48,878 nt of DNA from Verrucomicrobiota bacterium (GTDB lineage Bacteria; Verrucomicrobiota; Verrucomicrobiia; Opitutales; Opitutaceae): contig JANYJB010000009.1 of the NCBI GenBank assembly GCA_025361935.1, positions 1 to 48,878 of the forward strand. Direction: 5' to 3'. The translations under genes and the position numbers were made by a program. This document shows, piece by piece, positions 2,238-48,821 of this stretch (the first letter of the stretch is position 1; every line of letters starts with the position of its first letter). The notes under the pieces are model-generated. The model did not search any database. It worked only from the letters and a program-made list of their open reading frames with translations, and was not told the origin of the DNA.

Positions 2238-3332
2238 TCAGAACGAGCCGCGCTTGATCATCACGGGGGCGACGCGTTCAAGGACGCCGATCTCCTCATG
2301 CCCGGAGGCGATTTGCCGCACCCAGTGGACGGCGGAATGGGCGATGCGATCCATGTCCTGTTGAATCGTCGTCAGCGGCGGATCGGTAAGCTCGCCGCTC
2401 TGGGAGCCGTCATAGCCGATCAGGCTCACATCCCGGGGAACCGCCACTTTCTGGTAGTTCAATATCTCCAGAAAACTGGTCGCCAGGCGTCCATCGGTCA
2501 CGAAGTAGCTCCCGCGGGCCGGATTTTTGTCCAGATAAGCCTGCACGTTGAGCGAAATCTCGAAGGCGCTCCGGCTCCACTCGATCGGCACCACGGTGAG
2601 AGTGTCCGGCGCGCGCCCGGCCGCCAGCCAAGTGTGCCGGAACCCCTCGATGCGCGGGCTCACGCGGGGGTTGTTTTCCGAGCCCGCATGATAAACGACC
2701 ACCACGGAGCGGGCATCGGTCTTGAGCAGAGCCTCGGCGGCGAGGCGTCCGCCCATGTGGTGATCCGTCACGATATTTGCCCGGTAGAGGCCGCTGTAGT
2801 TGGCATCAAGCCCGATGACGGGCACGGGAAACTTCTCGAACGTCTTGAGGAAGGAACGGCTGCTGTCGCTGTCCAGTAGCATCAGGTCACAGCCCTCCCA
2901 TACGGATGCTTCCGGCATCGTGCTCAAAGGGAGCAAGTCGATATGCAGGTCGATGTTGCTGTAACGGCACTCCCGGCTGAGCGCATCGGCCAACCGGCGA
3001 AACCCCGAAAAATAGATGTAACTCTCGCCCGAGAAGACCGCCTTTACCCGGATCGAACGCAGGATGCGTTTATAAAGCTGGGCGGAAACTTTGTAGCCCC
3101 GGTTGGGCAGCAGATCGAGCCACTCCTCCTTGTGCAACTGCCGGAGCGCACGCCAGACCGCATCCCGGCTGATTTTGAAATGCTCGGACATCTTGCGCAC
3201 CGTGGGCAACCGCTCGCCCGGCTGCAGGCGATTGGCGCGGATGAAATGCTTGATCTGCTCACCAGCCGCATCTCGGCGGTTCGCGTCCGGGCTGATTTCC
3301 AGCGCACGCTCAATATTGGTGATGGCCGACAT
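2238..3332 (-). CDS. GntR/LacI hybrid transcriptional regulator
   Basis: A 364-residue cytoplasmic regulator. Residues about 23-83 form a GntR-type winged helix (EQIKHFIRANRLQPGERLPT, then SRDAVWRALRQLHKEEWL and the wing LPNRGYKV). Residues about 93-360 look like a periplasmic-binding-protein sensor of the LacI type, with VIGLDANYSGLYRANIVTD, AAEALL and the C-terminal VSLIGYDGSQSGELTDPPLT and TTIQQDMDRIAHSAV motifs. Such proteins normally bind a sugar and control neighbouring carbohydrate genes. It is convergent with GH128 copy 1 and divergent from the MsmK-type ATPase gene, which has a good promoter in the shared gap. Its ligand is unknown. The start is the only ATG before the winged helix. 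Confidence 0.85.
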   Translation of the reverse strand: MSAITNIERALEISPDANRRDAAGEQIKHFIRANRLQPGERLPTVRKMSEHFKISRDAVWRALRQLHKEEWLDLLPNRGYKVSAQLYKRILRSIRVKAVFSGESYIYFSGFRRLADALSRECRYSNIDLHIDLLPLSTMPEASVWEGCDLMLLDSDSSRSFLKTFEKFPVPVIGLDANYSGLYRANIVTDHHMGGRLAAEALLKTDARSVVVVYHAGSENNPRVSPRIEGFRHTWLAAGRAPDTLTVVPIEWSRSAFEISLNVQAYLDKNPARGSYFVTDGRLATSFLEILNYQKVAVPRDVSLIGYDGSQSGELTDPPLTTIQQDMDRIAHSAVHWVRQIASGHEEIGVLERVAPVMIKRGSF

Positions 3333-3370
3333 TAGAAAAATTTAAGTCTCCCGAAGCTGTAAGCCCTTAA

Positions 3371-3400
3371 TTGTAATGGCAAGAATCGATCACATATAAT
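3371..3400 (+). promoter_or_regulatory. Sigma-70 type promoter for the ABC ATPase gene
   Basis: TTGTAA at 3371-3376 and a perfect TATAAT at 3395-3400 are separated by 18 bases. Transcription would start near 3407, giving a leader of about 210 bases before the ATG at 3616; I see no gene in that leader. The divergent regulator gene starts at 3332, so an operator for it may overlap this promoter. Confidence 0.5.
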
Positions 3401-3615
3401 TTAAAGGGCATTTTTCAGACAAAGGGCACGCATGGCCGAAATCGAGCGTGATCGGTGCATCCGCCATAAAGTTTTCCCCATCTCGCACGCCGCCTGTCGC
3501 GCCTGTCATCACTTCGATTCCGACGCTGGACATCTTTCTTCCGCCGCCGAAAAATCATCATGCGCGGCATCATCCCCACCCTTTGATGAAGTGTGCGTTT
3601 TCCAACTTCATTCTT

Positions 3616-4746
3616 ATGGCCAACATCGTCATCGAAAATCTCGTCAAAATCTACCCAGGGGAAAAATCGAAGGACGTGAAGGTTGTCCATGGCATCAACC
3701 TCGAGATTCACGACCGCGAGTTCATGGTTTTGGTGGGTCCCTCGGGCTGCGGCAAATCGACCACCCTTCGCATGATCGCCGGCCTCGAGGAAATCTCGGG
3801 CGGCACCATTTCGATCGACGGGCGCGTGGTGAACAACGTGCTGCCGAAAGACCGTGACATCGCCATGGTGTTTCAGAACTACGCGCTCTACCCGCACATG
3901 TCGGTTTACGACAACATGGCCTTCGGCCTGAAACTGAGAAAATTTTCCAAAACCGAGATCGACCGGCGCGTGCGCGAGGCCTCGGCGATGCTCGGCCTTG
4001 ATCCGTATCTGGATCGCAAACCCAAGTCCCTCTCAGGCGGCCAGCGTCAGCGCGTGGCCGTCGGCCGTGCGATCGTGCGCAAGCCCAAGGTTTTCCTCTT
4101 CGACGAACCGCTCTCCAATCTCGACGCCAAGATGCGGGTGGTCACGCGCACGGAGATCACCAAGCTGCACGCCAGGCTCGACGCCACCATGGTCTATGTG
4201 ACCCACGACCAGGTCGAGGCGATGACGATGGGCGATCGCATCTGCGTCATGAAGGACGGCCACATCATGCAGGTCGCCGAACCGCTGGCGGTCTACAATC
4301 ATCCGGAAAACATGTTCGTCGCCGGATTCATCGGCAGTCCGCCCATGAACTTTTTCAAGGGCATCGTCGTGAAAGACGGCGAAACGTTGAAGTTTGCCGA
4401 GGCGAACCCCAAGGGAACACCCGTGGTCGTGACGCTCGATGCGCGCCTGCACGCCATCGCGCAAGACCACGTCGGGAAATCCCTGGTGTTCGGCATTCGC
4501 CCGGAGGATGTGCAGGACACTTCAGGCCTCGTTGACCCCGACCCTAAGCGAACTGCCCGCGTGAGCGTCGAAGTCTCCGAACCGATGGGCGCGGAAACCT
4601 ATCTTTATCTCACCACGGGGGCCTCCTCCTTCGTCGCGCGCGTGCGCCCGACCGACAACTTCAAGCCGGACCAGCAAATCCAGGTCACGTTCCGCATGGA
4701 GAACGCCCACCTTTTCGACGAAGCCACCGGCAAGGTGCTCAAGTAG
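3616..4746 (+). CDS. MsmK/UgpC/MalK-family sugar ABC transporter ATPase
   Basis: A 376-residue ATPase of the CUT1 sugar importer type. Visible motifs are Walker A GPSGCGKST (41-49), Q-loop FQNYALYP (86-93), signature LSGGQRQRVAVGRAI (139-153), Walker B VFLFDEPLSNLDAKM (159-173) and the switch histidine THDQ (196-199). The C-terminal third has the TOBE/MalK-type regulatory region (FGIRPEDV and the ending LFDEATGKVLK). The start MANIVIENLVKIYP is typical of the family; the frame is open upstream but without family similarity. No binding-protein or permease gene lies nearby, so this is probably a shared ATPase energising several CUT1 importers, as MsmK does in some bacteria. Linkage to the GntR/LacI regulator suggests carbohydrate control. 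Confidence 0.9.
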   Translation: MANIVIENLVKIYPGEKSKDVKVVHGINLEIHDREFMVLVGPSGCGKSTTLRMIAGLEEISGGTISIDGRVVNNVLPKDRDIAMVFQNYALYPHMSVYDNMAFGLKLRKFSKTEIDRRVREASAMLGLDPYLDRKPKSLSGGQRQRVAVGRAIVRKPKVFLFDEPLSNLDAKMRVVTRTEITKLHARLDATMVYVTHDQVEAMTMGDRICVMKDGHIMQVAEPLAVYNHPENMFVAGFIGSPPMNFFKGIVVKDGETLKFAEANPKGTPVVVTLDARLHAIAQDHVGKSLVFGIRPEDVQDTSGLVDPDPKRTARVSVEVSEPMGAETYLYLTTGASSFVARVRPTDNFKPDQQIQVTFRMENAHLFDEATGKVLK

Positions 4747-33634: not shown

Positions 33635-34234
33635 ATGCCCACGAAATCCCTGCGCACTCTCCTCAAAGGCTTCGTTCTTTTGGCCGCCCTGCCCGCCCTC
33701 GCCAGCGCCCACCCGGGCCACGATGGCGACCACGGCTTCGGTTGGGATTTCAGCGGCGGCTTCACCCATCCGCTCAGCGGCTGGGATCACCTCCTCGCCA
33801 TGATCGCCGTCGGCCTCTGGGCCGCGCAGCTCGGCGGACGCGCCCGCTGGCTCGTGCCCGCCGCCTTCTTGAGCGTGATGACCCTCGGCGCCATTCTCGG
33901 CCACGGTGGCCTGCAAATCGCGGGCACCGAACAAGGCATCGCCGCCTCGGTCCTCGTGCTCGGCCTGCTCGTCGCCACCGCCGCCCGTCTCCCTGTCGCC
34001 GCCGGCATGGCCATCGTCGGCATATTCGCCCTCTTCCACGGCCTCGCCCACGGTGCGGAAATGCCCGCGACCGCCGCCGGTCTTTCCTACGGCCTCGGCT
34101 TCGTGCTCGCGACCGCCCTGCTCCACGCCGCCGGTCTCGGCCTTGGCCTCTTCACCTCACGCAAATCCACCGTCATCCCGCAGACCGCCGGAGTCGCCAT
34201 CGCCCTGGTCGGCGTGGCCATGCTGGCCTTCTGA
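33635..34234 (+). CDS. HupE/UreJ-family nickel permease-like protein
   Basis: A 199-residue membrane protein with a cleavable signal peptide (about 1-25) and about six membrane segments. The mature N-terminus HPGHDGDHGFGW is histidine-rich and may bind metal. The family signature HPLSGWDHLLAMIAVGLWAAQLGG lies at 45-68, and FALFHGLAHGAEMP (about 131-144) supplies further histidines. HupE/UreJ proteins import nickel or cobalt for hydrogenase or urease. Here the gene is convergent with the urease accessory gene ureD and there is no hydrogenase, so nickel supply for urease is the likely role. A terminator hairpin for this transcript lies inside the end of ureD at 34307-34336. Confidence 0.88.
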   Translation: MPTKSLRTLLKGFVLLAALPALASAHPGHDGDHGFGWDFSGGFTHPLSGWDHLLAMIAVGLWAAQLGGRARWLVPAAFLSVMTLGAILGHGGLQIAGTEQGIAASVLVLGLLVATAARLPVAAGMAIVGIFALFHGLAHGAEMPATAAGLSYGLGFVLATALLHAAGLGLGLFTSRKSTVIPQTAGVAIALVGVAMLAF

Positions 34235-34269: not shown

Positions 34270-35085
34270 TCACAGCTTGCGCGCATCGCAGGCCAGATGA
34301 GGAAAACGCGCCGACAACAGTCGGCGCGTTTCTTTTAACCCCTGCCGCAGCCGCACGCCGTCCGTCGCGACAAACTTCAGGCTCCAGCCGCCTTTGCGCA
34401 GACGGCTCGCGCCGATCCAAAGACCGTCGCCCTGCAAGGCGTGCACCGCCTCGCGCCAGCCGTCACCCGGCTCCTCCGCAATGAGCACCGCGTTGCCAAA
34501 GCAAGCTCCCGGCCCGGAACCCATCAGAGCGGCCATCGCTTTCAACTCCTCGCCCGACGGATGGAATCGCTCGCGCAAAATCAGTTCGCCGCCCAGCCGC
34601 ACATCCACTTCCAGGCACAGCGAATCCCACAGCCACGCCTCATCGTGCGCCACCCGACCCGGCATGAGCATATCGGCGAAAAATAGTCCGCCGCCCGGCT
34701 CCATCTCGATGCGCGTGACCTGCCGGTAGCGGCAGCCCCGATGCGGCACCAGCGGCTCCGGCATCACCTCCATCCAGCCGCCTCTCTCCACCGAAAACCG
34801 CTGGAGGCACTCCGCCGAACCTTCCCGCATCTTGAACACCCGGCTCGCGCTTGGCGTGGTGACGAGCAGCGCCGCCCCCGCGCCCACCGCGATGTCCGAT
34901 TCCAATTTATCCCCCGACAAAATCCCCGCCGTAGGATTCACCACCTGCACAAGTAACGTCCCCGTGTCCGCGTCCCAGTAAGGTTTGCTCACATGAAACG
35001 GCGCGCGAAACGCCTGCGCCGCCAGCACCGTGCGGCCATCGCGCGCCTCGGCGCGCAGAGAAAGTTGTCCGTAAAAATCGGCCAT
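34270..35085 (-). CDS. ureD: Urease accessory protein UreD/UreH
   Basis: A 271-residue scaffold protein that binds apo-urease with UreF and UreG during nickel insertion. Family features are LRAEARDGRTVLAAQAFRAPFHVSKPYWD, VQVVNPTAGILSGDKLESDIAVGAGAALLVTTPSASRVFKM, PEPLVPHRGCRYRQVTRIEM and GLFFADMLMPGRVAHDE. The start at 35085 overlaps the ureG stop by one base (TGATG), so translation is coupled. ureD is last in the cluster, unlike clusters where it comes first. A perfect hairpin followed by a T-rich run lies within its last codons, on the strand that would end the convergent hupE transcript. Confidence 0.92.
   Translation of the reverse strand: MADFYGQLSLRAEARDGRTVLAAQAFRAPFHVSKPYWDADTGTLLVQVVNPTAGILSGDKLESDIAVGAGAALLVTTPSASRVFKMREGSAECLQRFSVERGGWMEVMPEPLVPHRGCRYRQVTRIEMEPGGGLFFADMLMPGRVAHDEAWLWDSLCLEVDVRLGGELILRERFHPSGEELKAMAALMGSGPGACFGNAVLIAEEPGDGWREAVHALQGDGLWIGASRLRKGGWSLKFVATDGVRLRQGLKETRRLLSARFPHLACDARKL
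34307..34336 (+). terminator. Intrinsic terminator of the hupE transcript inside ureD
   Basis: CGCGCCGAC (34307) and GTCGGCGCG (34320) form a perfect 9-bp stem with loop AACA, followed by TTTCTTTT and preceded by AAAA. It lies 73 bases after the hupE-type stop and falls within the final codons of convergent ureD. On the minus strand the same hairpin is followed by only TTTTCC. Confidence 0.6.
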
Positions 35086-35705
35086 CAGCCCTTCGCCTTT
35101 CGCGCAAACAGCACCTCGCGTTCGATCCACGCGATGACCGCATCGAGGTTATGCTCGCGCTTGAGGTCGCAAAACAAAAACGGCTTCGCCCCGCGCTGGA
35201 TTTTCGCATCGCGATCCATCACGCCGAGATCGGCGCCCACGAGCGGAGCGAGATCGATTTTGTTGATGATGAGCAGATCGCTGTGCCGGATCGCCGGCCC
35301 GCCCTTACGCGGGATCTTGTCCCCTTCGGCCACGTCAATCACGTAGATGAACACATCCACCAGCTCCGGTGAAAACGTCGCCGTGAGATTATCGCCGCCG
35401 CTCTCGACGAGCACGAGTTGCAAGTCCGCAAATTTCGCCTCCAACGCTCGGCACGCCTGCTCGTTCATCGTCGTGTCGTCACGGATGGCCGTATGCGGAC
35501 ACCCACCGGTCTCCACGCCCGCGATGCGCTCGGCGGACAACGCGCTGTGCTGAATGAGAAACTGCGCGTCCTCGGAGCAGTAAATGTCGTTGGTCACGAC
35601 GGCCATCGAGTAGCGCTCGCGCAGCTTCTGGCAAAGTTTGAGACAAAGCATGGTCTTGCCCGAACCAACCGGGCCGCCGATGCCGATGCGTGGGGGACGA
35701 GACAT
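35085..35705 (-). CDS. ureG: Urease accessory GTPase UreG
   Basis: A 206-residue SIMIBI-class GTPase that drives nickel delivery to urease. P-loop GPVGSGKT at 11-18, [14 protein letters not shown], the nickel-binding [13 protein letters not shown] with the Cys-Pro-His motif, [21 protein letters not shown] and the base-recognition INKIDLAP. The start at 35705 gives the normal N-terminus [11 protein letters not shown]. It is separated from ureF by 170 bases that contain an inverted-repeat element, an unusual break in a urease accessory operon, and its stop overlaps the ureD start. Confidence 0.96.
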
Positions 35706-35731
35706 AATTGAATTAAAGATTTTGAGTTGGG

Positions 35732-35850
35732 ACACAGAGAGCACAGAGTTCCAATCCGGAGTTTACAGAGCAAATCATAGAAACCACGGAAAAACATTCG
35801 TAGTCGGACGGCCCTCCCAAAACTCTATCCGAACTCTGTGCCCTCTGTGT
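35732..35850. repeat. Long inverted repeat of the CTCTGTG type inside the urease operon
   Basis: Two 20-base arms at 35732-35751 and 35831-35850 are reverse complements in 19 of 20 positions, about 79 bases apart. Each arm itself contains the direct repeat CACAGAG/ACAGAG, or CTCTGTG on the other side. They fill most of the ureF-ureG gap. The CACAGAG motif resembles dispersed intergenic repeats I have seen in many environmental bacterial genomes. There is no transposase gene and no target duplication that I can point to. Confidence 0.6.
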
Positions 35851-35875
35851 AACTGGATTGAAGTTCTTCATCGTC

Positions 35876-36589
35876 TCACGAAATAAACAACCTTCCATCC
35901 GCCGTCTCATGCCGCGCCGCCGCGATGTCGAGCCAAGGGTTGAACCAGCCGATCTCGTCGAACGACACCTGCTCCGCCGCCGCGATGATCGCCAGCGCTT
36001 GCGCCAGAGCCTCGGTGAGCAACGCCTGACAACCGTTCTGCCCGATACGCAAAATCTTCATCGCCGCCGCCAGTTGCCCGCCAATGGCCGCATAATAAAC
36101 GCCCGCCATCACCGCCGCCAACGGCGCACCCAGCATGCGGCCTTCCAGCGCCGCCGATACCGACGCCGAAAACGGCCAGCCACCCGCCGCCGCCTGTTCC
36201 AAATACGCGACCGCCAGCGGATGGCCGTGCAGGCTCGCCGCCAGTTCGGCGCGCTGACGCCCGATGTTGTGCGACGCCTGCCGCGCCTCGCTCGCGGTCT
36301 TCACCGCCGACGACAGCACGCACAGTTCTTCCATCCGCACCCAATCCGGTTCTCCCAAGGCCCTGTAAGCATGCGCTGCCAAAGGCAACTCGACATGCCT
36401 TAACGCCGGCAACGCCGATAAAAACAAAAACTCCCGCAAGGTCGCCCGGTCGTGCACCGCCCCCGCTTGCACGAGCCCCTCCAACCCGAACGAATGCGCA
36501 TAGCTCCCCGTCGGATAAAACGAGTCGCCCGCCTGAAGCAGGCTTACGATCCAGCCGGCGTCAGTGTTTGTGGCTGGGCCCGAGTTCAT
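35876..36589 (-). CDS. ureF: Urease accessory protein UreF
   Basis: A 237-residue, all-helical protein that acts with UreD and UreG in urease activation. Recognisable blocks are WIVSLLQAGDSFYPTGSYAHSFGLEGLVQAG (13-43), LRHVELPLAAHAYRALGE, ASEARQASHNIGRQ, HPLAVAYLEQAA and the C-terminal ILRIGQNGCQALLTEALAQAL. The start at 36589 lies inside the end of ureE, an overlap of 29 bases; the frame is open farther upstream but only as antiphase of ureE. The C-terminus ends HETADGRLFIS. Confidence 0.92.
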   Translation of the reverse strand: MNSGPATNTDAGWIVSLLQAGDSFYPTGSYAHSFGLEGLVQAGAVHDRATLREFLFLSALPALRHVELPLAAHAYRALGEPDWVRMEELCVLSSAVKTASEARQASHNIGRQRAELAASLHGHPLAVAYLEQAAAGGWPFSASVSAALEGRMLGAPLAAVMAGVYYAAIGGQLAAAMKILRIGQNGCQALLTEALAQALAIIAAAEQVSFDEIGWFNPWLDIAAARHETADGRLFIS

Positions 36590-37028
36590 GAGGAGTTGCG
36601 GCAACTGCGCCCCGGGCAAAACGCCCCGCGCGAAACACCGCCATCGTTGGTTTGCAGGAAATCTGGATGCGCTCGAAAAGTTGCCGCGCCGCCGGTTCGT
36701 CCGGCGTGAGAAGGCGCGTCGGCTCGGACGAAAACTCAAGATGCAGGTTGCCCACCGCCCAACCGATACCGGCGGCCGCGCTCGGCGGGAGATCGAGCGC
36801 AATCTCCAGCACCGCCTCGGGTTCCTGCACGATCACGTAGCGCGCCGTGGGGGTCTGGCAAAAAGCGGCTCCGTGTCGCAGCGGCGTATCCAACTCGAAA
36901 CCAAACTCCACCCCGTCCTCCGCCATGCCGCGCCATAATCTTTTAGCCAGCGTGCGCCGCTCCACACGCAATCCGATCTCCGGCAAAGCGGAATCAGGTT
37001 TGGTTATGGAGGCGGTGATCAAAATCAT
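36561..37028 (-). CDS. ureE: Urease accessory nickel chaperone UreE
   Basis: A 155-residue metallochaperone that brings nickel to the UreG complex. The N-terminal part (about 1-75) is the peptide-binding domain with LRVERRTLAKRLWRGMAEDGVEFGFEL and LRHGAAFCQTPTARYVIVQEPEAVLEIAL; the C-terminal metal-binding domain shows AVGNLHLEF, where the conserved His lies. The tail ends HELGPSHKH, so there is a short His-containing end but no long His-rich extension. It lies 55 bases after ureC and overlaps ureF. An in-frame ATG pair about seven codons upstream is an alternative start. Confidence 0.88.
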   Translation of the reverse strand: MILITASITKPDSALPEIGLRVERRTLAKRLWRGMAEDGVEFGFELDTPLRHGAAFCQTPTARYVIVQEPEAVLEIALDLPPSAAAGIGWAVGNLHLEFSSEPTRLLTPDEPAARQLFERIQISCKPTMAVFRAGRFARGAVAATPHELGPSHKH

Positions 37029-37083
37029 AGCAAAGCGTTCACCCATCATCGCGAGGCAAAGCCGCGTGGGCAACAAGCCGATT

Positions 37084-38850
<1,767 letters not shown>

Positions 38851-38863
38851 GGAAGCGGATGCG

Positions 38864-39175
38864 TCAGAGTTTGCCGTTGATCTTGGCGTTGAGGCCCCAG
38901 ACCTCGCGAAGGCCCGTGAGGGCGACGAGCTCAACCTGCTTGGTGTCGCCGGCCTCGAAGCGCACCGCCGTGCCGGCGGGGATGTTCAGGCGAAAACCGC
39001 GGGCAATCTTGCGGTCGAAGCGCAGCGCGGAGTTGGTTTCGTAGAAATGAAAATGAGAACCGACCTGGATGGGACGATCGCCGGTGTTGGCGACCTGAAT
39101 AATCTTGATCTCCAGTCCGAGGTTAGCGTCGAGCGCGGGCGCGTCAGGAGAAGGGATGATTTCGCCGGGGATCAT
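38864..39175 (-). CDS. ureB: Urease subunit beta
   Basis: A 103-residue structural subunit. [10 protein letters not shown] is the usual start, followed by [28 protein letters not shown] and [28 protein letters not shown], both diagnostic. Length is standard for separate UreB of bacteria with three-subunit urease. The ATG at 39175 follows the ureA stop by two bases, and ureC begins 13 bases after its own stop, so the three structural genes are tightly linked. Confidence 0.96.
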
Positions 39176-39177
39176 GG

Positions 39178-39480
39178 TCAGCGGATGGGATTGTGGACGG
39201 TGACGAGCTTGGTGCCGTCGGGAAACGTCGCCTCGACCTGCACGTCGTGGATCATCTCAGGCACGCCCTCCATGACCTGGTCGCGCGCGAGGAGCGTGGT
39301 GCCGTAGCTCATGAGATCGGCAACCGTGCGGCCGTCGCGGGCGCCTTCCATGATCTCGTAGGAAATGATCGCGATGGACTCGGGGTAGTTAAGCTTGAGT
39401 CCCCTCGCCTGCCGACGACGGGCAAGATCGGCGGCGGTGACGATGAGGAGTTTTTCGCGTTCGCGCGGGGTCAGGTGCAT
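39178..39480 (-). CDS. ureA: Urease subunit gamma
   Basis: The 100-residue small structural subunit, normal length. It begins [23 protein letters not shown] and contains [46 protein letters not shown] and [20 protein letters not shown], as in all UreA proteins. It is separated from urtE by 67 bases that hold a triple 10-base direct repeat. No sigma-54 or obvious sigma-70 promoter is seen in that gap, so ureA probably depends on transcription from the urt genes. Confidence 0.97.
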
Positions 39481-39547: not shown

Positions 39548-40261
39548 TCAGACTTGCAGGTGGGTTTTCACGACGTCGTCGGTGAGCGACGCAATGTCGC
39601 CGGAAATCGTAACCGCGCCGCGATCCATCGCGTAAAAACGGTCGGAAATCTCACGGCAAAAATCGACGTATTGCTCGACGAGCAAAATAGCGAGTGAGCC
39701 GTCGGACTTGAGCGCCTTGAGCGCGTCGCCGATCTGGTCGATGATCGACGGCTGGATGCCCTCGGTGGGTTCGTCGAGGATGAGAAGTTTCGGCTTGGTG
39801 AGAAGCGCACGGCCGATGGCGAGCTGCTGTTGCTGTCCGCCGGAGAGCACGCCGCCTTTGCGCGAGAGCATTTCCTTGAGCACGGGAAAAAGCGTGAAGA
39901 CTTTGTCGAGACCTTCGCGGGCCTCGGCGCCCTTGCGTCCGTGGACGACGAGACCAACGTGGAGGTTTTCCTCGATGGTCAGGTGCGGGAAAATGTCACG
40001 ACCCTGCGGCACATAGCCTATGCCGGCACGGGCGCGGGCGTCAGGAGGGAGTTTGTCGATACGCTGGCCATCGAGCGTGATCGACCCGGCGCGGATGGCG
40101 CGCAGGCCGGTGATGGAGCGCAGCGTGGTGGTCTTGCCAACGCCATTGCGGCCCATGAGAGCGACGAGTTCGCCAGATTTCACTTCGAGGTTTACACCGC
40201 GCAGGATGCGGGAACCACCGATGTCGGCTTCGACGGATGCGAGTTGGAGAAGGGCGTTCAT
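39548..40261 (-). CDS. urtE: Urea ABC transporter ATP-binding protein UrtE
   Basis: A 237-residue LivF-type ATPase of the urea importer. Walker A GRNGVGKTT (38-46), GYVPQGRDIFPHLTIEENL, signature LSGGQQQQLAIGRALL, Walker B LLILDEPTEGIQPSII and the LLVEQYVDFCREISDRFYAMDRG C-terminal block, which is the UrtE form of the family. The start overlaps the urtD stop (ATGA). It pairs with UrtD to power UrtB/UrtC. Confidence 0.95.
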   Translation of the reverse strand: MNALLQLASVEADIGGSRILRGVNLEVKSGELVALMGRNGVGKTTTLRSITGLRAIRAGSITLDGQRIDKLPPDARARAGIGYVPQGRDIFPHLTIEENLHVGLVVHGRKGAEAREGLDKVFTLFPVLKEMLSRKGGVLSGGQQQQLAIGRALLTKPKLLILDEPTEGIQPSIIDQIGDALKALKSDGSLAILLVEQYVDFCREISDRFYAMDRGAVTISGDIASLTDDVVKTHLQV

Positions 40262-41022
40262 TTGTTGGACTTTCCACGACCGAGATAAACCTCGCGAACC
40301 TTGGGGTTGGACTGGACCGCGTCGAATTTGCCTTCGCAGAGGACGCTACCTTGGTGAAGGACGGTAACCTGGCCGTCGCGGGCGATCTGTTTGACGAAAG
40401 TCATATCGTGCTCGATGACAATGATGCTGTGCTTGCCCGCGAGCGAGATGAGGAGCTCGCCGGTGCGGTGGGTCTCCTCGTCGGTCATGCCGGCGGCGGG
40501 CTCGTCCACGAGTAGGATTTTCGGATCTTGAGCGAGCAACATGCCGATCTCCAACCACTGTTTCTCACCGTGAGCGAGCTGACCGGCCTTCCAGTCGCGC
40601 TTGCCATCGAGACGGATGAGCTTGAGCAACTCGTCGATGCGGTCGCGATCTGTCGAGGAAAGACGTGTGAAGATGGATGCAAAAACGCCGCGCGAGCCTT
40701 TGAGAGAAAGGACTATGTTGTTGAAGACCGTGTGCTCGGTAAAAACGCTCGGCGTCTGAAACTTTCGCCCAACACCCAGGCGGTTGATCTCGTATTCGTT
40801 CATCGTTGTGAGATCGGTATCGAAACCAAACTCGATCTTACCCTTGTCGGGCTTGGCGCGACCGGTGATGAGGTCGAAGAACGTGGATTTCCCCGCGCCG
40901 TTAGGACCGATGACGGTGCGCAGTTCGCCTTCAAAGAGGTAGAAAGTGAGATCGGTGATCGCTTTGAATCCATCGTAGGTTTTCGAGACGTCCTCGACCG
41001 TGAGCATGTATTTGTTGTTCAT
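40258..41022 (-). CDS. urtD: Urea ABC transporter ATP-binding protein UrtD
   Basis: A 254-residue LivG-type ATPase. It begins MLTVEDVSKTYDGFKAITDLTFYLFEGELRTVIGPNGAGKSTFFDLITGRAKPD after five residues, with Walker A GPNGAGKST, then IGRKFQ-like GVGRKFQTPSVFTEHTVFNNI, signature region LAHGEKQWLEIGMLLAQDPKILLVDEPAAGMTDEET and EHDMTFVKQIA. The LAHGEKQWLEIGM form is typical of UrtD. It starts six bases after urtC and overlaps urtE. Confidence 0.95.
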   Translation of the reverse strand: MNNKYMLTVEDVSKTYDGFKAITDLTFYLFEGELRTVIGPNGAGKSTFFDLITGRAKPDKGKIEFGFDTDLTTMNEYEINRLGVGRKFQTPSVFTEHTVFNNIVLSLKGSRGVFASIFTRLSSTDRDRIDELLKLIRLDGKRDWKAGQLAHGEKQWLEIGMLLAQDPKILLVDEPAAGMTDEETHRTGELLISLAGKHSIIVIEHDMTFVKQIARDGQVTVLHQGSVLCEGKFDAVQSNPKVREVYLGRGKSNK

Positions 41023-41028
41023 GGCGGA

Positions 41029-42120
41029 TCAGGCGGAAGGTTGGCGGGTGACGCGCTGCCAAAGGGATTTTAGCCGGGCCGGAATGCTTACAATGCCACC
41101 AGGTAGCAGCAGCACGACGACCACAAACAAGCCGCCCAAGATCACCAACCAATAATCGGGTGCCGCGCGCGAGGCCCAGCTCTTGAGAGAGTTGATACTG
41201 ATCGCGCCGATGATCGGGCCGACTAGCGTGCCGCGCCCGCCAACCGCGCACCAGACGACGGCTTCGAGAGATTTGTCGGGCGTCATCTCGGATGGATTGA
41301 TGATGCCTACCTGCGGGACATAAAGCGCGCCGCCAATGCTCGCGATCAGCGCGGCCACGACAAAAATAAAGAGCTTGAAATGAGCAGTGGCGTAGCCGCT
41401 GAAAAGCACGCGATTCTCGCCGTCGCGGATGGCGCGTTGCACGAGGCCGAACTTCGTATGGCTGAGCAGGCGCAGGGATGCGTAAACCAGCAGCAGCACG
41501 ATTGCCGTGACGATAAACAGCCCTCGCTGGGTGGACGCTTCCCGCAAATCATGCCCCAAGATAAATTTGAAATCGGTAAACCCGTTGTTGCCGCCCATCA
41601 GCATGTCGTTGCGGAAAAACATCAGCGACGCTCCGTAGGTCAGCGCCTGCGTAAGAATGGAAAAATAGACGCCCTTGATGCGGGAGCGAAAGGCGAGGAA
41701 TCCGAATACAAGCGCCAGCAGGCCCGGCAGCAGAAAAATCATCGAAGCCGCGAAGGGAAAACTGGCGAACGGCTTCCAGAACTTGGGCAATTCCGTCCAA
41801 CCGAGAAAGACGAGGAAGTCCGGAATGGGCTTATGATATTGGCCCAAGTCACCGATCATGCGCATGAGATACATGCCCATCATATAACCACCGAAACTGA
41901 AGAAAAGCGCCTGCCCGAGACTAAGCAGACCTGTGTAACCCCAGAGTAAATCCACCGAGATGGCCAGCAAGGCGTAGCAAAGATACTTGCCCCAAAGATT
42001 GATCGTAAAATTGCTGACCATGCCGTGGGCATTCAGCAGGGGAAAAATGACGATGAAGAACAAACCGATGGCGCTGGCGGCAATCAGTTCGACTTTGTGT
42101 CGGGTGGAAAGGGTGGACAT
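41029..42120 (-). CDS. urtC: Urea ABC transporter permease UrtC
   Basis: A 363-residue inner-membrane permease of the LivM type with about ten hydrophobic segments. Diagnostic parts are [32 protein letters not shown] near 57-88, [23 protein letters not shown], the urea-family [16 protein letters not shown], and the LivM block [31 protein letters not shown], followed by GSIGGALY-type sequence and [17 protein letters not shown]. urtB ends 59 bases upstream and urtD begins six bases downstream. Confidence 0.95.
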
Positions 42121-42179
42121 TAGACGATGAAAATTGGAAGTGGGTTGGTTGAAGGATCGCCCGCAAGCAGGCTCTTACA

Positions 42180-43895
42180 TTAGTCATCAAGATTTCGGCT
42201 GCGCGTGACGAAGAGGCCGGACGGCTTCCATTGCAGGAACAGGATGATCGCCACAAGGACGAGAATCTTGCCGAGAACGGGATTCAGCAGAATTTGCTGG
42301 AGCGACTGATCCACCAGCCCGATGCCGAGCGCGCTGTAAATGGTGCCTGCCAGATTGCCGACACCGCCGACCACGACGGTCATGAAGCAATCAACGATGT
42401 AGTTTTGCCCGAGCGAAGGACCAACGTTGCCAATCTGGCTGATGAACGCGCCGGCGAGTCCCGCGAGACCGCTGCCAAGGCCAAAGGTAAGCATGTTCAC
42501 GCGTTCGGTGCGGACACCCATGCAAGAGGCCATGTTGCGATTTTGCATCACCGAGCGAATGAGCAGGCCAAGCGGAGTTTTGGTGAGGATAAGCCACACG
42601 CCGAAAACGATGAGACCAGCGAACCCGATCACGAAGATGCGATTCCAGCCGAAAGTGATGTCATCAATCGTCCAGTTGCCGCTCAGGTAAATCGGGCTGC
42701 TGACTTGGACGTTGTTGGAACCAAACATAAGCTTGAGCGCTTGTTGCAGGAGGAGCGAGACGCCCCAAGTGGCGAGGAGGCTTTCCAAGGGACGACGGTA
42801 GAGGAAGCGGATGATGCTCCGCTCCAGGGCGATTCCCACCAAAGCGGCGGCGAGAAAACTGAGCGGAAGCGCGACCAAAAAGTAGGTTTGATAAAACCAT
42901 CCGGTCGCATGAATCCCGGGAATCGGCAGGCTGAAACCAAAGAACGGGATAGTGATGCCTGTTCCGAAAATATTTTCGACCAGGTAGGTCGTATAAGCAC
43001 CCACGGCGATCATCTCGCCGTGCGCCATGTTGATCACACCCATGAGACCGAAGGTAATGGCCAGACCGATGGCCACGATCAGGAGGATGCTGCCGAGACT
43101 GAGGCCGCGGAAAAGGGTGCCAAAGACGTTGATCTTGGTCTTGTGAAGATCGATCGCCTTGAGTGCGTGCAGGCCGGCCTCGGCAAGCTCCGGCTTGCCG
43201 GCTTTTTCCTCCTCACGCATCGCCGTGCGGATTAGATCGTAACTGGAAAGGGAATGAAGGTCCTTGAGTTCGTTGAACGCGGAAAGTTTTTCCGCATCGG
43301 ACGCTTTGAGACGTGTCACCGCAAGCGCTTCCAACAGTGACTTGCGGGCGGCTGAATTTTTCTCAAGCGAAAGGCGCTTTTCCAGAGCTGGAATTTTTTC
43401 AACATCCTGGGAAAAACCGACCGCTTGGATCGCCTGGATGCGCTTGATGATGTCGGGCGTGGCCAAGTCGAGTAGATCGAGCACGTTTTTCATGGCATGC
43501 CGAAGCTCCGCATCATGTTCAACGGAGGTGAGGTCACCAGCCACGAGTCGCACGGGTTTGCCGACGGCATCCAGCAGGGGCTGACCATTATCAACACGAA
43601 GGGCGGCCTGAGCATCATTGGCATCTTTATCGCCCGTAAGAATGACCGGAAGCGGCGGTGCGTCGTCCGAAGCCTTGCAGACAAACAGCCCATCCTCTTT
43701 CCACGCCATCAGGAGAGGTTTGATGGCTTCATCGCTTTCGCCCACCAATGAACCGATCAATTCAAGCTTGTGGGCCTGATCCTTGGCCAAGATGGCCGCA
43801 GTGATGATGGCGCGGGGCGATTCAGTAGCAAACGCGCAACCGAAAGCCAGCAGCCCAAAAAGTGTTATGAAAATAAATCGAGTGAGTGAGCGCAC
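42180..43895 (-). CDS. urtB: Urea ABC transporter permease UrtB
   Basis: A 571-residue LivH-type permease beginning at a GTG. Residues about 1-24 are a signal-like segment, and about 25-265 form the periplasmic helical domain typical of UrtB (AAILAKDQAHKLELIGSLVGESDEAIKPLL). The permease domain follows from about 280: LSLGSILLIVAIGLAITFGLMGVINMAHGEMIAVGAYTTYLV, the RPLESLLATWGVSLLLQQALKLMFGSNNV block and SVMQNRNMASCMGVRTERVNMLTFGLGSGLAGLAGA. The frame is open upstream but the residues there cover the terminator after urtA, so the GTG with its hydrophobic start is preferred. Confidence 0.93.
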   Translation of the reverse strand: MRSLTRFIFITLFGLLAFGCAFATESPRAIITAAILAKDQAHKLELIGSLVGESDEAIKPLLMAWKEDGLFVCKASDDAPPLPVILTGDKDANDAQAALRVDNGQPLLDAVGKPVRLVAGDLTSVEHDAELRHAMKNVLDLLDLATPDIIKRIQAIQAVGFSQDVEKIPALEKRLSLEKNSAARKSLLEALAVTRLKASDAEKLSAFNELKDLHSLSSYDLIRTAMREEEKAGKPELAEAGLHALKAIDLHKTKINVFGTLFRGLSLGSILLIVAIGLAITFGLMGVINMAHGEMIAVGAYTTYLVENIFGTGITIPFFGFSLPIPGIHATGWFYQTYFLVALPLSFLAAALVGIALERSIIRFLYRRPLESLLATWGVSLLLQQALKLMFGSNNVQVSSPIYLSGNWTIDDITFGWNRIFVIGFAGLIVFGVWLILTKTPLGLLIRSVMQNRNMASCMGVRTERVNMLTFGLGSGLAGLAGAFISQIGNVGPSLGQNYIVDCFMTVVVGGVGNLAGTIYSALGIGLVDQSLQQILLNPVLGKILVLVAIILFLQWKPSGLFVTRSRNLDD

Positions 43896-43924
43896 AAAAG
43901 GACGACGTGGTGAAAGTGACGGGC

Positions 43925-43960
43925 AAAAAAAGGGCGGGCCCACAAAGAGGACCCGCCCTC
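43925..43960 (-). terminator. Intrinsic terminator between urtA and urtB
   Basis: Read on the minus strand, GGGCGGGTCC and GGCCCGCCC form a stem with one mismatch around an eight-base loop, followed by seven T. It lies 55 bases after the urtA stop and 30 bases before the urtB GTG. It should end most urtA transcripts and let a fraction continue, giving an excess of binding protein over permease. Confidence 0.8.
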
Positions 43961-44014
43961 CCGTATGAACGGGATAATTAGCAAAGTCTGTGCCTAATCG
44001 CACAGGCAGCGTGA

Positions 44015-45274
44015 TTACTTGGACTTGAATTTACCAAGCAGCCAGGGCTCGCCGTAGACGTCCTTGAATTCCTCAAGGATCTTGAACTGGCCTTTGGCCG
44101 TGGTCTCGCCGATGAACACATTCTTGGTCATGTGCATGTTGGGCTGGCTGGTGACTTTGCCACCAGGACCGTCGAAGGAGAGGCCGGATTTGAGAGCGGC
44201 GCGAACCTTATCAACATCAAAGGAGCCGGCCTTTTCGACCGCAGCTTTCCAAAGGTAAACACCGTCGTAGCTGAGCACCATAGGCGAGCAGGTGACGCGG
44301 CCTTCCTTCACGATACCGGGAACATTGGTGGTCTTGAGCCAAGCCTTGAAGTTTTTGACAAACTCTTTGTTGGCAGGGCTTTTGATGGACTGGAAGTAGG
44401 TCCAGCAGCCGAGCTGCCCGACTAGTTGCTTCGCGGGAAGACCGCGGAACTCGTCTTCCGAGATCGAGAAGGAAACAACCGGAGCGGTTTCGGCAGTGAG
44501 GCCGGCAGCAGCGTATTCCTTGAAGAAGGGAACGTTGGTGTCGCCGTTGAGCGTGCTCACGACGGCAGTCTTGCCACCAGCGGCGAACTGCTTGATTTCA
44601 GCAACGATCTGCTGGTAATCAGTGTGGCCGAACGGCGTGTATTTGCCAGCAGAGATGATCTTGCCGGAGTCATCTTTTTTGAAGCCGCCGCCGATATTTT
44701 CCAGAGCGACGCCCTTGCTGAGGAGATACTCGAGCAGCACGAGGTTGGTGGTTTGGGGATAAACGTAATCAGTGCCGATCAAGTAGAACTTAGTGTAGCC
44801 CTGCTTGAGGAGATAATCGATCGCAGGGGTCGCCTGCTGATTAACGGCCTCGGCAGTGTAGAACACGTTCTGGGACTCTTCTTGGCCCTCGTATTGCACG
44901 GGGTAGAAAAGAAGACCGTTGTTCTTCTCGTAAACAGGCAGGACCGACTTGCGGGACACCGAAGTCCAGCAACCGAAGGTCACGGAAACCTTATCCTGCT
45001 CGAGCAGTTGCTTGGCCTTCTCAGCGAAGAGGGGCCAGTTTGAGGCACCGTCAACGACGACCGGCTCGATTTTCTTGCCGAGGACGCCACCCTTGGCGTT
45101 GATCTCGTCGAAGGTGAAAAGAAGCACATCGCGCAGCGAGGTTTCGCTGATCGCCATCGTGCCGCTGAGGGAGTGAAGAACGCCAACCTTGACGGTGTCT
45201 TCCGCGTGGACGGAACTGACGAGCGCTCCGAGAGCGAGAGCACCAGCAGTCATCAACTGATTTACTTTTAACAT
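44015..45274 (-). CDS. urtA: Urea ABC transporter substrate-binding protein UrtA
   Basis: A 419-residue periplasmic protein with a signal peptide [20 protein letters not shown] ending near VHA-ED (24/25). It has the amide-binding family start [66 protein letters not shown] and the UrtA-type block [62 protein letters not shown] closes the second lobe. There is no Tat motif. Its promoter is of the sigma-54 type, and an intrinsic terminator follows, so it is an independently expressed first gene of the urea import unit. Confidence 0.96.
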
Positions 45275-45345
45275 GTGGTTTGGACTTGGTTAGTTTTTAA
45301 ACCCTCTAATCGCTAAAACGGCGACAGACGGGAGGCCTCCAGATT

Positions 45346-45362
45346 AGCACTCGCTTTGCCAA
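45346..45362 (-). promoter_or_regulatory. Sigma-54 (-24/-12) promoter of urtA
   Basis: The minus strand reads TTGGCAAAGCGAGTGCT. TTGGCA matches the -24 element and GTGCT the -12 element (consensus TTGCA/T, one mismatch), with GG and GC exactly ten bases apart as sigma-54 requires. The start site would be near 45335, about 60 bases before the urtA ATG. Urea uptake genes are controlled by nitrogen in many bacteria, which fits. Confidence 0.65.
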
Positions 45363-45502
45363 CTTAAGGGAAAATTTCCGGTATCCCCAATAACTCCGTA
45401 AAACAACACGCACGACCATCCGCTCCGTCCAATCTCCAATCTGGATGCAGCCAAACTAGGGCGCCCCGGACGGCTTTGGCATTTATCTCGTGAAACGGAC
45501 AC

Positions 45503-45536
45503 AAAAAAGGCGGGTCGTGGAAAACCACGACCCGCC
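45503..45536 (-). terminator. Intrinsic terminator after the porin gene
   Basis: GGCGGGTCGTGG and its perfect complement CCACGACCCGCC form a 12-bp stem around a four-base loop, followed on the minus strand by six T. It lies about 90 bases after the porin stop, so the porin is probably transcribed alone. Confidence 0.9.
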
Positions 45537-45625
45537 TGAAACTATAATATCTAAAATTTAAGCTTTTAAATCCTTGAGATTAAGAGGCACGAGACTTCGA
45601 AATCGAAAGGTCAAAGCTTAAGCAA

Positions 45626-46654
45626 TTAGAACTTGAAGAGACCCTGCACGGCGTAGAAGAACGTGTCGCCGGTGTTGTCATTGTAGTCCTGCTTGGTGAC
45701 TTCACCCTTAACCGAGAAGTTCGGTGTGATGATGTAAGTAGAAGCAACACCGTAGTCGGTGTAGTTGCTGGCGGTGGTGTTGATCGAACCAGCCGTGCCA
45801 TCAGCAGCACCGAAACGACCGGAAATCGACAACTTGTCATTGACAGCGTAGCTAGCTTGCAGCGTGTAAGCAAAGCTCACCGTTTGGACAGAGGACTTGG
45901 GTCCCGTGCCATTGAAGTGGCTGGCATAGGAAGCAACAAGCGTGAGCTTGTCGGTCGCAGCGTAAGCAGCCCAAGCGTTGTAGGTCTCGAGCTTGTAGCC
46001 ACCGCTGACATCCTGATAGCCAGCACCCGCGAACACCGTCAGCTTGTCGATGCCGGAGTAGAGGACATAGCCTTCATAACCCTGGTCGTTGGAGTATTCT
46101 CCATCGCCCTGGAAAAAACCCTTAGGGGTAGCGTCAGGCAAAAGAGAATCGCGGACGGAAATGCCAGCCGACAGCGTCTTGGTGATGTATTCAACCTTGG
46201 CGCCGGTGGTGTAGTTGGCGATGTAGCCGACATTGTCAGCCGCACCGAAGGTGATGAAAGCGTTGCTGGGCGAGTCGAACGACTCGTAACCCAACCAGCT
46301 GTTGAACTTGCCGGCGGTCACAGCGAACTCACCCTTGGTGTAGGTCACGTAAGCGTCGAGAAGACCCGCGTCTCCTGTGCTGGACTTGAGCTTAGGAACA
46401 TCGAAAAGGCTCACCTTGCCGGTGAAATCACCGTATTTGCCATTGAGGGCAACTTTGACGGCGTCGATCTGCTTGTTGCCGGAATCAAGAAACGTGTCGT
46501 TTTGGGCGGCACTGCCTTCGGTAACGGCAAGAGCTCCGATGGCGTAACCTTCGAGAGCGAGGTTATCGTTGATTTTAACTTCCGCAGAAGCAGTCGCGGC
46601 AAGAGCAGCAAGAGCTGCGGTCCAACCAGTCAGTTTGGTCATGTGTTTGATCAT
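45626..46654 (-). CDS. Outer-membrane porin-like beta-barrel protein
   Basis: A 342-residue exported protein. Signal peptide about 1-24 (TAALAALAATASA before EVKIND). The mature chain alternates short polar turns with amphipathic strands: VKVALNGKYGDFTGKVSLF, LLDAYVTYTKGEFAVTAGKFNSWLGYESFDS, AKVEYITKTLSAGISV, YNAWAAYAATDKLTLVASYASHF, and it ends with the outer-membrane signature FFYAVQGLFKF, terminal Phe. It resembles the OmpL-like barrel porins (BBP2 type) of Verrucomicrobia. A sigma-54 promoter and placement immediately upstream of urtA suggest diffusion of urea or other small nitrogen compounds; this is inference. An ATG at codon 5 is an alternative start. Confidence 0.85.
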   Translation of the reverse strand: MIKHMTKLTGWTAALAALAATASAEVKINDNLALEGYAIGALAVTEGSAAQNDTFLDSGNKQIDAVKVALNGKYGDFTGKVSLFDVPKLKSSTGDAGLLDAYVTYTKGEFAVTAGKFNSWLGYESFDSPSNAFITFGAADNVGYIANYTTGAKVEYITKTLSAGISVRDSLLPDATPKGFFQGDGEYSNDQGYEGYVLYSGIDKLTVFAGAGYQDVSGGYKLETYNAWAAYAATDKLTLVASYASHFNGTGPKSSVQTVSFAYTLQASYAVNDKLSISGRFGAADGTAGSINTTASNYTDYGVASTYIITPNFSVKGEVTKQDYNDNTGDTFFYAVQGLFKF

Positions 46655-47035
46655 GGCTTGTATGTTTTGTTTGTAGTTCAGCCCCGCACTCGCTGCGGAT
46701 TATCCACAGAGAACGCTGGCCGATGGGTTACTAAGCAACTGGCCTGCCAATCAGCGTCAAGACTTTGATTTCCATACCCCAGCCACACGAAAACCCTGTC
46801 ATAATTGGAGCTTCTTTCTAAATAACAGCGAGATAGAGGCTATCACCTTACATATTTTCATATCAGGTAATGAGTTCCTTTTGCCAAGCCTGGCCTCGAT
46901 TACTGCCCTTGTGCGCTATTTTGATCAGCCATTCTTTTATAAGAACTCCAGAAACAATACGGGGATTTTAAACTACACCTTCAATAAATCGCTCTAACGC
47001 CAAGCTACTCAAGCGGCGAAAATAGACCGCAGCCA
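46655..47035. other. Gene-free upstream region of the porin
   Basis: This 381-base stretch shows no gene. It holds the porin leader with a small hairpin (CCGCA/TGCGG at 46684-46698), the sigma-54 promoter, and about 280 AT-richer bases beyond it. At 47026-47047 a weak hairpin (ACCGCA facing TGCGG-T) overlaps the stop of the helix-turn-helix gene and may end that transcript. Confidence 0.6.
46734..46750 (-). promoter_or_regulatory. Sigma-54 (-24/-12) promoter of the porin gene
   Basis: The minus strand reads TTGGCAGGCCAGTTGCT: a full TTGGCA at -24, a full TTGCT at -12, and GG-N10-GC spacing. This is closer to consensus than the urtA promoter. The start site would be near 46724, giving a leader of about 70 bases. 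The agreement between the two sites, on genes of one functional set, makes chance less likely. Confidence 0.75.
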
Positions 47036-47515
47036 TTAGCTTGCGGTATTTTTTCGGTCTTTGGGAAGCTCGCCGAAAGTTCCCTGCTCGGAGGCACGCA
47101 CAAATCCCTCGGTAACGCTTTTCAACTCCTCCCACCGTTGGCGAATCTGGCGAGCTTCCTCCTTGGTGATTTTACTGTCAGCCGCAGCCGTGGCGATGGT
47201 CGCCAGCATGTCGGCAAACTCTTGGACAATCTCGTTGGCAACCGGGATGATCGAATCTGCGCGCGGCGCGGACTTGGGGTTTGCGATAAAAAATCCCCCT
47301 GCCTGTTCGCACACCCACTGGGCGATTCGGCGGTCATTTGTGCTTTTTAATAACTGCTGGATGCGATCAAGCGGGTTGTTGGCTCCGCTGCCTTCACTGT
47401 CGGAAGGAGGTTCCGCCCATTTGTAGATAAGAGACAGAGACAGCCCCATATCGGCCGCGATCTGTTTGGCGCTGGTTTGCTTCAGGACTTCCTTGAGAAC
47501 CTCATGCGAGTGCAT
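47036..47515 (-). CDS. Small helix-turn-helix DNA-binding protein
   Basis: A 159-residue cytoplasmic protein. The first 35 residues contain a helix-turn-helix, VLKEVLKQTSAKQIAADMGLSLSLIYKWAEPP, like the recognition part of phage CII/Cro-type regulators. A central region (RRIAQWVCEQAGGFFIANPKSAP) is followed by a long helical stretch (ANEIVQEFADMLATIATAAADSKITKEEARQIRQRWEELK) that may form an oligomerisation helix. I recognise no specific family. The start at 47515 (MHSHEVLKE) is chosen over an in-frame codon at 47551. It is divergent from sucC with 124 bases between starts, so regulation of sucCD is possible but unproven. Confidence 0.75.
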   Translation of the reverse strand: MHSHEVLKEVLKQTSAKQIAADMGLSLSLIYKWAEPPSDSEGSGANNPLDRIQQLLKSTNDRRIAQWVCEQAGGFFIANPKSAPRADSIIPVANEIVQEFADMLATIATAAADSKITKEEARQIRQRWEELKSVTEGFVRASEQGTFGELPKDRKNTAS

Positions 47516-47639
47516 AACGACCGAGTTTGCCGCAGCATAAGCCAAACGCAATCTCGCACGCTTCCCTGCTTACAAGCGCAAACCGTGCGTGGTTTTGGCG
47601 TGCCATCCGCCTGTCACTTGTGGCAATCCTTGAACTTCC

Positions 47640-48821
47640 ATGAACATCCACGAGTATCAGGCCAAGACCCTCTTCGAGAAATTCGGCGTCCCCGTCCCCA
47701 AGGGCGTGGCGGCAAAATCCCCGGCGGAATTCGCCTCCGCCCTCGCCCAACTGCCCGACGCGCCCGTAGTCGTTAAATCACAAATCCACGCCGGTGGCCG
47801 CGGCAAAGGCACGTTCACCGACGGCTTCAAGGGCGGCGTCAAATTCGCCAAAACCAAGACCGAGGCCCTCGACTATGCCAACAAGATGTTTAACAACACC
47901 CTTGTCACCATCCAGACCGGCCCCGTCGGCCGCAAGGTCCAGACGATCTACTTCACCCACGCGAGCGACATCAAAAAGGAATACTACCTCGCCATCCTCC
48001 TCGACCGCGTCACCTCCCGCCCCGTGATCGTCGCCTCCACCGAAGGCGGCGTTGAAATCGAAAAGGTCGCCCACGACACGCCTGAAAAAATCTTCAAGAT
48101 CGTCATCGATCCCGCCTACGGCATCGCCGATTTCCAAATGCGCGAACTCATCGCCAAGCTCGGCCTCGCCGGTGCCGAGGCGAAAAACGCCGCGAAGCTC
48201 ATCCGCAACCTCTACGCATGCTACTGGGAGACCGACGCCGCCATGATCGAGGTCAACCCGCTCATCACTACCCCCACCGGCGACGTCCTCGCGCTCGACG
48301 CCAAAGTCTCCTTCGATTCCAACGCCCTCTACCGCCACCCCGAGATCGTCGCCCTGCGCGACCTCAACGAAGAAGACCCCAAGGAAATCGAAGCCTCCAA
48401 GTTCTCGCTCAGCTACATCGCCCTCGACGGCAACATCGCCTGCCTCGTCAACGGCGCCGGCCTTGCGATGAGCACGATGGACATCATCCAGCACTTCGGC
48501 GGCACTCCCGCCAACTTCCTCGACGTCGGCGGCGGCGCCACGAAGGACCAAGTCATCGCCGCTTTTAAGATCATCCTCGGCGATCCGAACGTGAAAGGCA
48601 TCTTGGTAAATATTTTCGGCGGCATCATGGACTGCAACGTCATCGCCACCGGCATTGTCGAGGCGGTCAAGGAAGTCGGCCTCAAGCTCCCCCTCGTCGT
48701 GCGCCTCGAAGGCAACAACGTCGCCGCCGGCAAAGCCACCCTCGCCAACTCGGGCCTCGCGCTCGTCTCCGGCGATTCCATGGCCGATGCCGCCCAGAAA
48801 ATCGTCAAACTCGTCGCCTAA
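47640..48821 (+). CDS. sucC: Succinyl-CoA synthetase subunit beta
   Basis: A 393-residue subunit of the citric-acid-cycle enzyme that converts succinyl-CoA to succinate with ATP or GTP formation. MNIHEYQAKTLFEKFGVPVPKG is the usual N-terminus; VVKSQIHAGGRGKGTF belongs to the ATP-grasp domain, EVNPLITTPTGDVLALDAKVSFDSNA carries metal-binding residues, and GNIACLVNGAGLAMSTMDIIQHFGGTPANFLDVGGGA and the VRLEGNNVAAGKATLANSGL block form the C-terminal CoA-ligase domain. sucD begins 18 bases downstream. Confidence 0.97.
   Translation: MNIHEYQAKTLFEKFGVPVPKGVAAKSPAEFASALAQLPDAPVVVKSQIHAGGRGKGTFTDGFKGGVKFAKTKTEALDYANKMFNNTLVTIQTGPVGRKVQTIYFTHASDIKKEYYLAILLDRVTSRPVIVASTEGGVEIEKVAHDTPEKIFKIVIDPAYGIADFQMRELIAKLGLAGAEAKNAAKLIRNLYACYWETDAAMIEVNPLITTPTGDVLALDAKVSFDSNALYRHPEIVALRDLNEEDPKEIEASKFSLSYIALDGNIACLVNGAGLAMSTMDIIQHFGGTPANFLDVGGGATKDQVIAAFKIILGDPNVKGILVNIFGGIMDCNVIATGIVEAVKEVGLKLPLVVRLEGNNVAAGKATLANSGLALVSGDSMADAAQKIVKLVA

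Follow-up and report, generated by a model that had tools for sequence, protein, structure and literature searches.

How is the entry of urea through the outer membrane tied to its import and hydrolysis? The question is raised by a 48,878-nucleotide stretch of contig JANYJB010000009.1 (the window), which belongs to a Verrucomicrobiota bacterium of the Opitutaceae whose 2.48 Mb draft genome is 88% complete. Its minus strand carries, in this order, a CII-like gene, a porin gene, urtA, urtB, urtC, urtD and urtE for a urea importer, and ureA, B, C, E, F, G and D for urease. A sequence-only reading had placed a sigma-54 type promoter before the porin and another before urtA, and had joined outer-membrane entry, import, hydrolysis and nickel supply in one nitrogen-responsive unit. 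The sites, their conservation, the presence of rpoN and of activators, and the occurrence of this promoter type before further nitrogen genes are in keeping with that proposal; the single unit and the nickel supply are not. Based on sequence comparison, the porin and urtABCDE-ureABCEFGD quite probably form one sigma-54 (RpoN) nitrogen-scavenging regulon with at least two transcripts.

The two sites and their conservation

The minus-strand 16-mers TGGCAGGCCAGTTGCT, before the porin, and TGGCAAAGCGAGTGCT, before urtA, lie where the sequence-only reading had put them and have the exact GG-N10-GC spacing. Sites were scored by a simple weighted match to the sigma-54 consensus TGGCACGN4TTGCW (maximum 17.4), the weights being our own or general background. 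The porin site scores 16.4, with a mismatch at one position, and the urtA site 14.7, with three. Counted from the first base of the site, the distance is 95 bases to the porin ATG at 46654, inside which a second in-frame ATG follows after 12 bases, and 87 bases to the urtA ATG at 45274; the 70-80 bases given earlier hold from the downstream end of each site. In 200 dinucleotide shuffles of the respective upstream regions, the score of the porin site was reached in none and that of the urtA site in 2. A single motif is by itself weak evidence and is not significant.

The upstream regions of relatives were compared next to this. The urtA gene was found in 54 of 150 family genomes, the window's included, and the stretches of the other 53 were taken together with the best 80 of 132 loci from named public genomes, whose titles include Opitutaceae, Chthoniobacteraceae, Akkermansiaceae and Verrucomicrobiaceae. 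With the window, this gave 134 loci, or 117 after duplicates were dropped. A same-strand frame of at least 180 codons ends shortly before urtA (the porin slot) in 97 of them; 12 have no such frame and 8 have too little sequence. From the 97, L088 and L136 were set aside as not barrel-like, and L063, L064, L100, L154 and L158 as lacking upstream sequence, which left 90. The slot frame is preceded by a site at or above the slot threshold of 14.2 in 72 of these 90 loci, many of which come from related genomes and are not independent events. Dinucleotide shuffles lead one to expect 3.9, and the reversed sequence gave 0; within urtA and within the porin gene, the counts were 1 and 2. The opposite strand gave 14, which may be due to the partly palindromic motif.

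The urtA site is present in all six loci whose UrtA is at least 92% identical to that of the window (the window, L054, L110, L111, L112 and L113), at 85 to 90 bases upstream of the start, and is sparse outside this close group. Both motifs thus recur in relatives, as the sequence-only reading would predict, and since they are conserved far beyond the controls, both stand far above chance. In several loci where no urtA promoter was seen (e.g., L061, L063, L078, L084 and L103), a GGCYACTGCC-like word recurs about 45-60 bases before the urtA ATG.

The clearest evidence comes from rearranged loci. Eleven family loci have no porin ahead of urtA, and in ten of them ureABC is divergent. All eleven have a site 96 to 123 bases before urtA, with scores from 13.5 to 16.2 (ten at 14.5 or above, one at 13.5). 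A site of at least 13.2 also precedes the divergent ureA in nine of ten loci and, in seven of eight, a displaced porin-like gene beyond urtE with 23-27% identity; in L088, the latter site falls within the open frame, 25 bases past its first ATG. At the threshold of 13.2, the controls for urtA, ureA and displaced porin were 1.1, 1.2 and 1.0 in shuffles and 2, 0 and 1 with the reversed sequence. Raising the threshold to 14.2 leaves 10, 8 and 7 sites, respectively, where shuffles give 0.2 in each case and the reversed sequence 0. In the named loci L162 and L165, where a porin is likewise missing ahead of urtA, the site before this gene scores 14.4. The putative promoter type appears to have moved along with the genes for porin, transporter and enzyme, and it is very likely that the porin and urtA of the window carry sigma-54 type promoters.

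Transcript structure and gene content

The shared sites fit a common regulon, and a regulon is preferred over one unit because a strong intrinsic terminator parts the porin from urtA and a terminator-like hairpin follows urtA (Table 1). A single transcript from porin to urease is weakened by both elements. For the second, a simple terminator scan gives an overlapping but different stem (43952-43973). In 80 of 109 loci, the 160 bases past urtA contain a strong terminator-like hairpin, versus 0.2 in shuffles. The porin and UrtA could thus outnumber UrtBCDE and urease, whose genes would depend on read-through. A site within 170 bases of urtA accompanies a strong terminator behind the porin in 8 of 16 loci, versus 3 of the 79 loci that lack such a terminator; the comparison is uncorrected for kinship, and five of the eight belong to the close group of the window. 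A search of 43900-47700 against Rfam gave zero matches at the gathering score.

The accessory genes ureEFGD lie on the same strand as, and downstream of, both sites. The urease gene names are our own assignment from sequence and gene order. Nickel supply has to be left out of the proposed unit, as the hupE/ureJ gene is convergent with the urease genes.

Table 1. Features discussed in the text (window positions; L numbers denote loci of relatives)
Feature	Position or loci	Strand	Basis or remark
Sigma-54 type -24/-12 site before porin, TGGCAGGCCAGTTGCT	46734..46749	-	Consensus match; conserved slot site
Sigma-54 type site before urtA, TGGCAAAGCGAGTGCT	45346..45361	-	Consensus match; conserved in close relatives
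Strong intrinsic terminator between porin and urtA (13 pairs, 10 GC, T-run)	45508..45537	-	
Terminator-like hairpin after urtA, then T-run	43932..43958	-	Custom script
BBP2-family outer-membrane porin, 342 aa, C-terminal F	45626..46654	-	Pfam PF07642 (E 4.7e-17); AlphaFold2 barrel; PDB general-porin folds
urtA, urea-binding protein of ABC importer	44015..45274	-	NCBIfam TIGR03407, 496.6 bits (cut-off 492.75)
urtB, urtC, urtD, urtE	39548..43905 (urtB start provisional)	-	Pfam permease domain (urtB, urtC); NCBIfam equivalogs above cut-off (urtC, D, E)
ureA, B, C, E, F, G, D	34270..39480	-	Open reading frames; relatives tracked
hupE/ureJ	33635-34234	+	PF04955 (E 1.5e-58); convergent with urease genes, not under either promoter
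CII/CP76-like regulator gene	47036-47551	-	Between porin and divergent sucC; position kept in several relatives
Smaller barrel-like slot protein	L137, L140, L141, L145, L146, L147, L149, L157, L159, L164		
Smaller barrel-like slot protein (further loci)	L168, L172, L173, L178, L180, L181, L182, L185, L188, L189		

The porin and its possible cargo

The window porin matches PF07642 with 62.7 bits (gathering cut-off 26.2), and all 45 aligned porin members match the same family at E values of 0.001 or below. Its AlphaFold2 model is a barrel of 16 long strands (mean pLDDT 83.2), whose closest folds in the PDB are general porins such as OmpT, chitoporin and DcaP, with a TM score of about 0.6. By sequence, the BBP2 alignment found nothing among solved chains up to an E value of 1. 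In other Verrucomicrobiota, the slot is occupied by a shorter barrel-like protein, and tblastn with the window porin finds nothing there. The slot protein of L145 was modelled with a pLDDT of 84; its barrel has 12 long strands and weakly resembles PcoB, Tsx and NanC. A Pfam search with ten of the divergent slot proteins gave none above cut-off: nine had nothing up to an E value of 0.1, and one had two matches below cut-off. Because these differing pores share one slot and one promoter type, we argue that the role, rather than the protein, has probably been kept. It is plausible that the porin is the entry for urea in the outer membrane.

A possibility to be taken seriously, if on balance a doubtful one, is that the porin is a general nitrogen-starvation pore for many small solutes, such as amides, amino acids and ammonium, which merely adjoins the urt genes. 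The 16-strand general-porin fold would suit this, as would the fast divergence of the BBP2 porins, which are 29-61% identical to that of the window (alignment A2) while UrtA stays at 72-93% across the family, and the occupation of the slot in other Verrucomicrobiota by a smaller barrel that is unrelated in sequence as far as can be detected. However, the porin adjoins urtA in most loci examined, and the displaced porin near urt keeps its own site; both point to urea or close analogues.

Nitrogen as the likely signal

In the mechanism that we infer, RpoN holoenzyme would be poised at the -24/-12 sites, and at low nitrogen an activator of the NtrC type would open those of the porin and urtA as well as the promoters that serve amtB, its two P-II genes and glnII. 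Urea would then cross the outer membrane via the porin, be bound by UrtA and imported by UrtBCDE, and glutamine synthetase would use the ammonia freed by urease. The hairpin downstream of urtA would hold the level of the binding protein above that of permease and urease, whose genes would be transcribed by read-through.

The machinery is consistent with this mechanism. The genome has a single copy of rpoN and, as the sequence-only reading would require, activators of the NtrC type. Seven activator-domain matches were found, of which two are convincing, as they span the whole NtrC profile and contain G[AS]FTGA; a third is without this motif. One of the two is nearest to NtrC and the other, beside a kinase gene, to AtoC, and each scores below its family cut-off. 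Across the family, rpoN is present in 138 of 150 genomes, and in 52 of the 54 that bear urtA.

In the same genome, a site lies at -86 before amtB (C61; L190, L203), which is followed by two P-II genes, and at -107 before a glutamine synthetase gene (C39; L196, L200). We take the C39 protein to be of type II (glnII) from its sequence, its profile match being to PF00120 only. Among the best 30 family loci of each search, the window genome's own included, the site is found before amtB in 23 and before glnII in 29, with 1.7 and 1.1 in mononucleotide shuffles and 2 and 0 in the reversed control. Of the 18 matches to TGGCAN7TGCT in the genome, four sit 86 to 107 bases before the ATG of a gene related to nitrogen, namely the porin, urtA, amtB and glnII. 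The remaining 14 all lie within some open frame of at least 123 codons, seven of them within frames of more than 400. This contrast is suggestive only, because open frames of 395 and 129 codons run across the porin and amtB sites on the other strand, and a possible start is found within 200 bases of several of the 14. Taken together, nitrogen is likely to be the signal to which these sites respond.

It is unlikely, by comparison, that the sites are sigma-54 promoters that answer to urea or another substrate through a dedicated activator rather than to general nitrogen limitation. Both activators fall below the NtrC cut-off and the four promoters share no enhancer, which would agree with a substrate signal, and in Methylophilus the fmd genes are described as induced by formamide and urea besides being repressed by ammonia (PMC10781810). 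Nevertheless, the same promoter type is found before amtB and glnII, neither of which encodes a protein that acts on urea, and the CII-like gene is the only regulator noticed among the open reading frames inspected beside the urea genes.

Several results weigh against a nitrogen-responsive sigma-54 regulon. Genome-wide, TGGCAN6TTGC has 15 matches versus 21 for its reversed control, and the 18 matches to TGGCAN7TGCT compare with 31, so that neither is enriched; motif counting was rejected as proof for this reason, and position and conservation were used instead. In 18 of the 90 porin-slot loci, the score is below 14.2; among these, L130, L137 and L171 have a site beyond the scanned stretch and L112 has tandem porins. 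Near the urtA of L136 (Chthoniobacter flavus, outside the 90) there is none, the best score being 11.7. In two of the family genomes that bear urtA (G081 and G109), both fragmented, rpoN was not found. No site of at least 13.4 lies upstream of the larger glutamine synthetase match in its C59 locus, and the amtB locus of the same-genus genome G041 (L215) has none, with a best score of 12.4. The barrel fold is uninformative on cargo. Neither candidate activator passes as a true NtrC orthologue (TIGR01818, cut-off 558.6), the C12 protein reaching 488 bits and the C86 protein 436 bits; as the genome is 88% complete, the orthologue may be missing from the assembly. Finally, no enhancer shared by the four own-genome promoters (porin, urtA, amtB and glnII) was found, so which activator serves them is a guess. 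In L112, the tandem pair of porin-like genes ahead of urtA lies at about 2273-4648 of that locus.

Elements beyond the -24 box are more apparent in relatives. The palindrome ATGAAAN3TTTCAT occurs with at most two mismatches before 11 of 34 of their porins (0.3 in shuffles); for the window porin, the best match has three mismatches and is not significant (0.18), and it is not claimed. Over 100 promoters of relatives, ATGA/TCAT words number 50 in the 15-base bin that spans positions 16 to 30 ahead of the -24 box, versus 6 to 28 in each of the other bins. The excess spans porin, glnII and amtB promoters; in loci without a porin in front, it lies 31 to 45 bases before the box, and the window porin has TTATGACA further out, near -53. 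These words may represent an activator site or a structural element.

That both motifs are chance resemblances, with expression driven by sigma-70 promoters, is highly improbable: short patterns are common genome-wide and two overlapping sigma-70-like matches occur at 45541-45570 on the minus strand, upstream of the terminator (1.3 expected in a simple scan), but the same scan gives none between either sigma-54 site and its gene, and the conservation far exceeds the controls.

Relation to known systems and significance

Comparable groupings have been described elsewhere. In Methylophilus methylotrophus, fmdCABDEF is repressed by high ammonia (PMC10781810); this system of another phylum has a formamidase where the window has urease, and the passage on it makes no mention of sigma-54. 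In an ntrC mutant of Burkholderia cenocepacia H111, expression of urt, ure, glnA, glnB and several porins is down, and that of one porin is up (PMC5491218). As far as that account goes, this NtrC/sigma-54 regulon shares the grouping of urt, ure, porin and nitrogen genes with the window genome. However, the H111 porins are, by locus tag, not adjacent to urt, whereas the window porin heads the urea cluster, and the nitrogen genes include glnA and glnB, whereas the glutamine synthetase gene with a site in the window genome is glnII. In comammox Nitrospira, fmdC is a putative porin for short-chain amides and urea alongside urease and, in some, urt (PMC11064514, PMC7078480); the passages concerned give no promoter evidence. 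A survey of sigma-54 regulons that covers Opitutia finds sigma-54 control of urease genes chiefly in alpha- and beta-Proteobacteria and reports a weaker nitrogen enrichment in Opitutia (PMC12316311); its main text is without urtA or a porin. No description of the arrangement and its spread in Verrucomicrobiota was found among the open-licence papers listed, as judged by titles and abstract openings. The principle is known from Methylophilus, Burkholderia and Nitrospira, and the cis arrangement in Verrucomicrobiota is a variant of it.

More tentatively, and with confidence falling a little short of even, we speculate that a sigma-54 nitrogen regulon is widespread in Verrucomicrobiota, with a dedicated urea pore as its hallmark. 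Two barrel families with no detectable relation in sequence would have been recruited to the slot, the promoter would follow porin, urt and ure through rearrangements, and the activator would be other than a classical NtrC, perhaps acting at an ATGA/TCAT element unusually near the -24 box. The regulon would extend sigma-54 nitrogen control to a large and less-studied phylum with a concrete set of genes (porin, urt, ure, amtB and glnII), and would offer a testable function for porins known so far just as BBP2. It also suggests that the passage of urea through the outer membrane may be a regulated step, and not free leakage.
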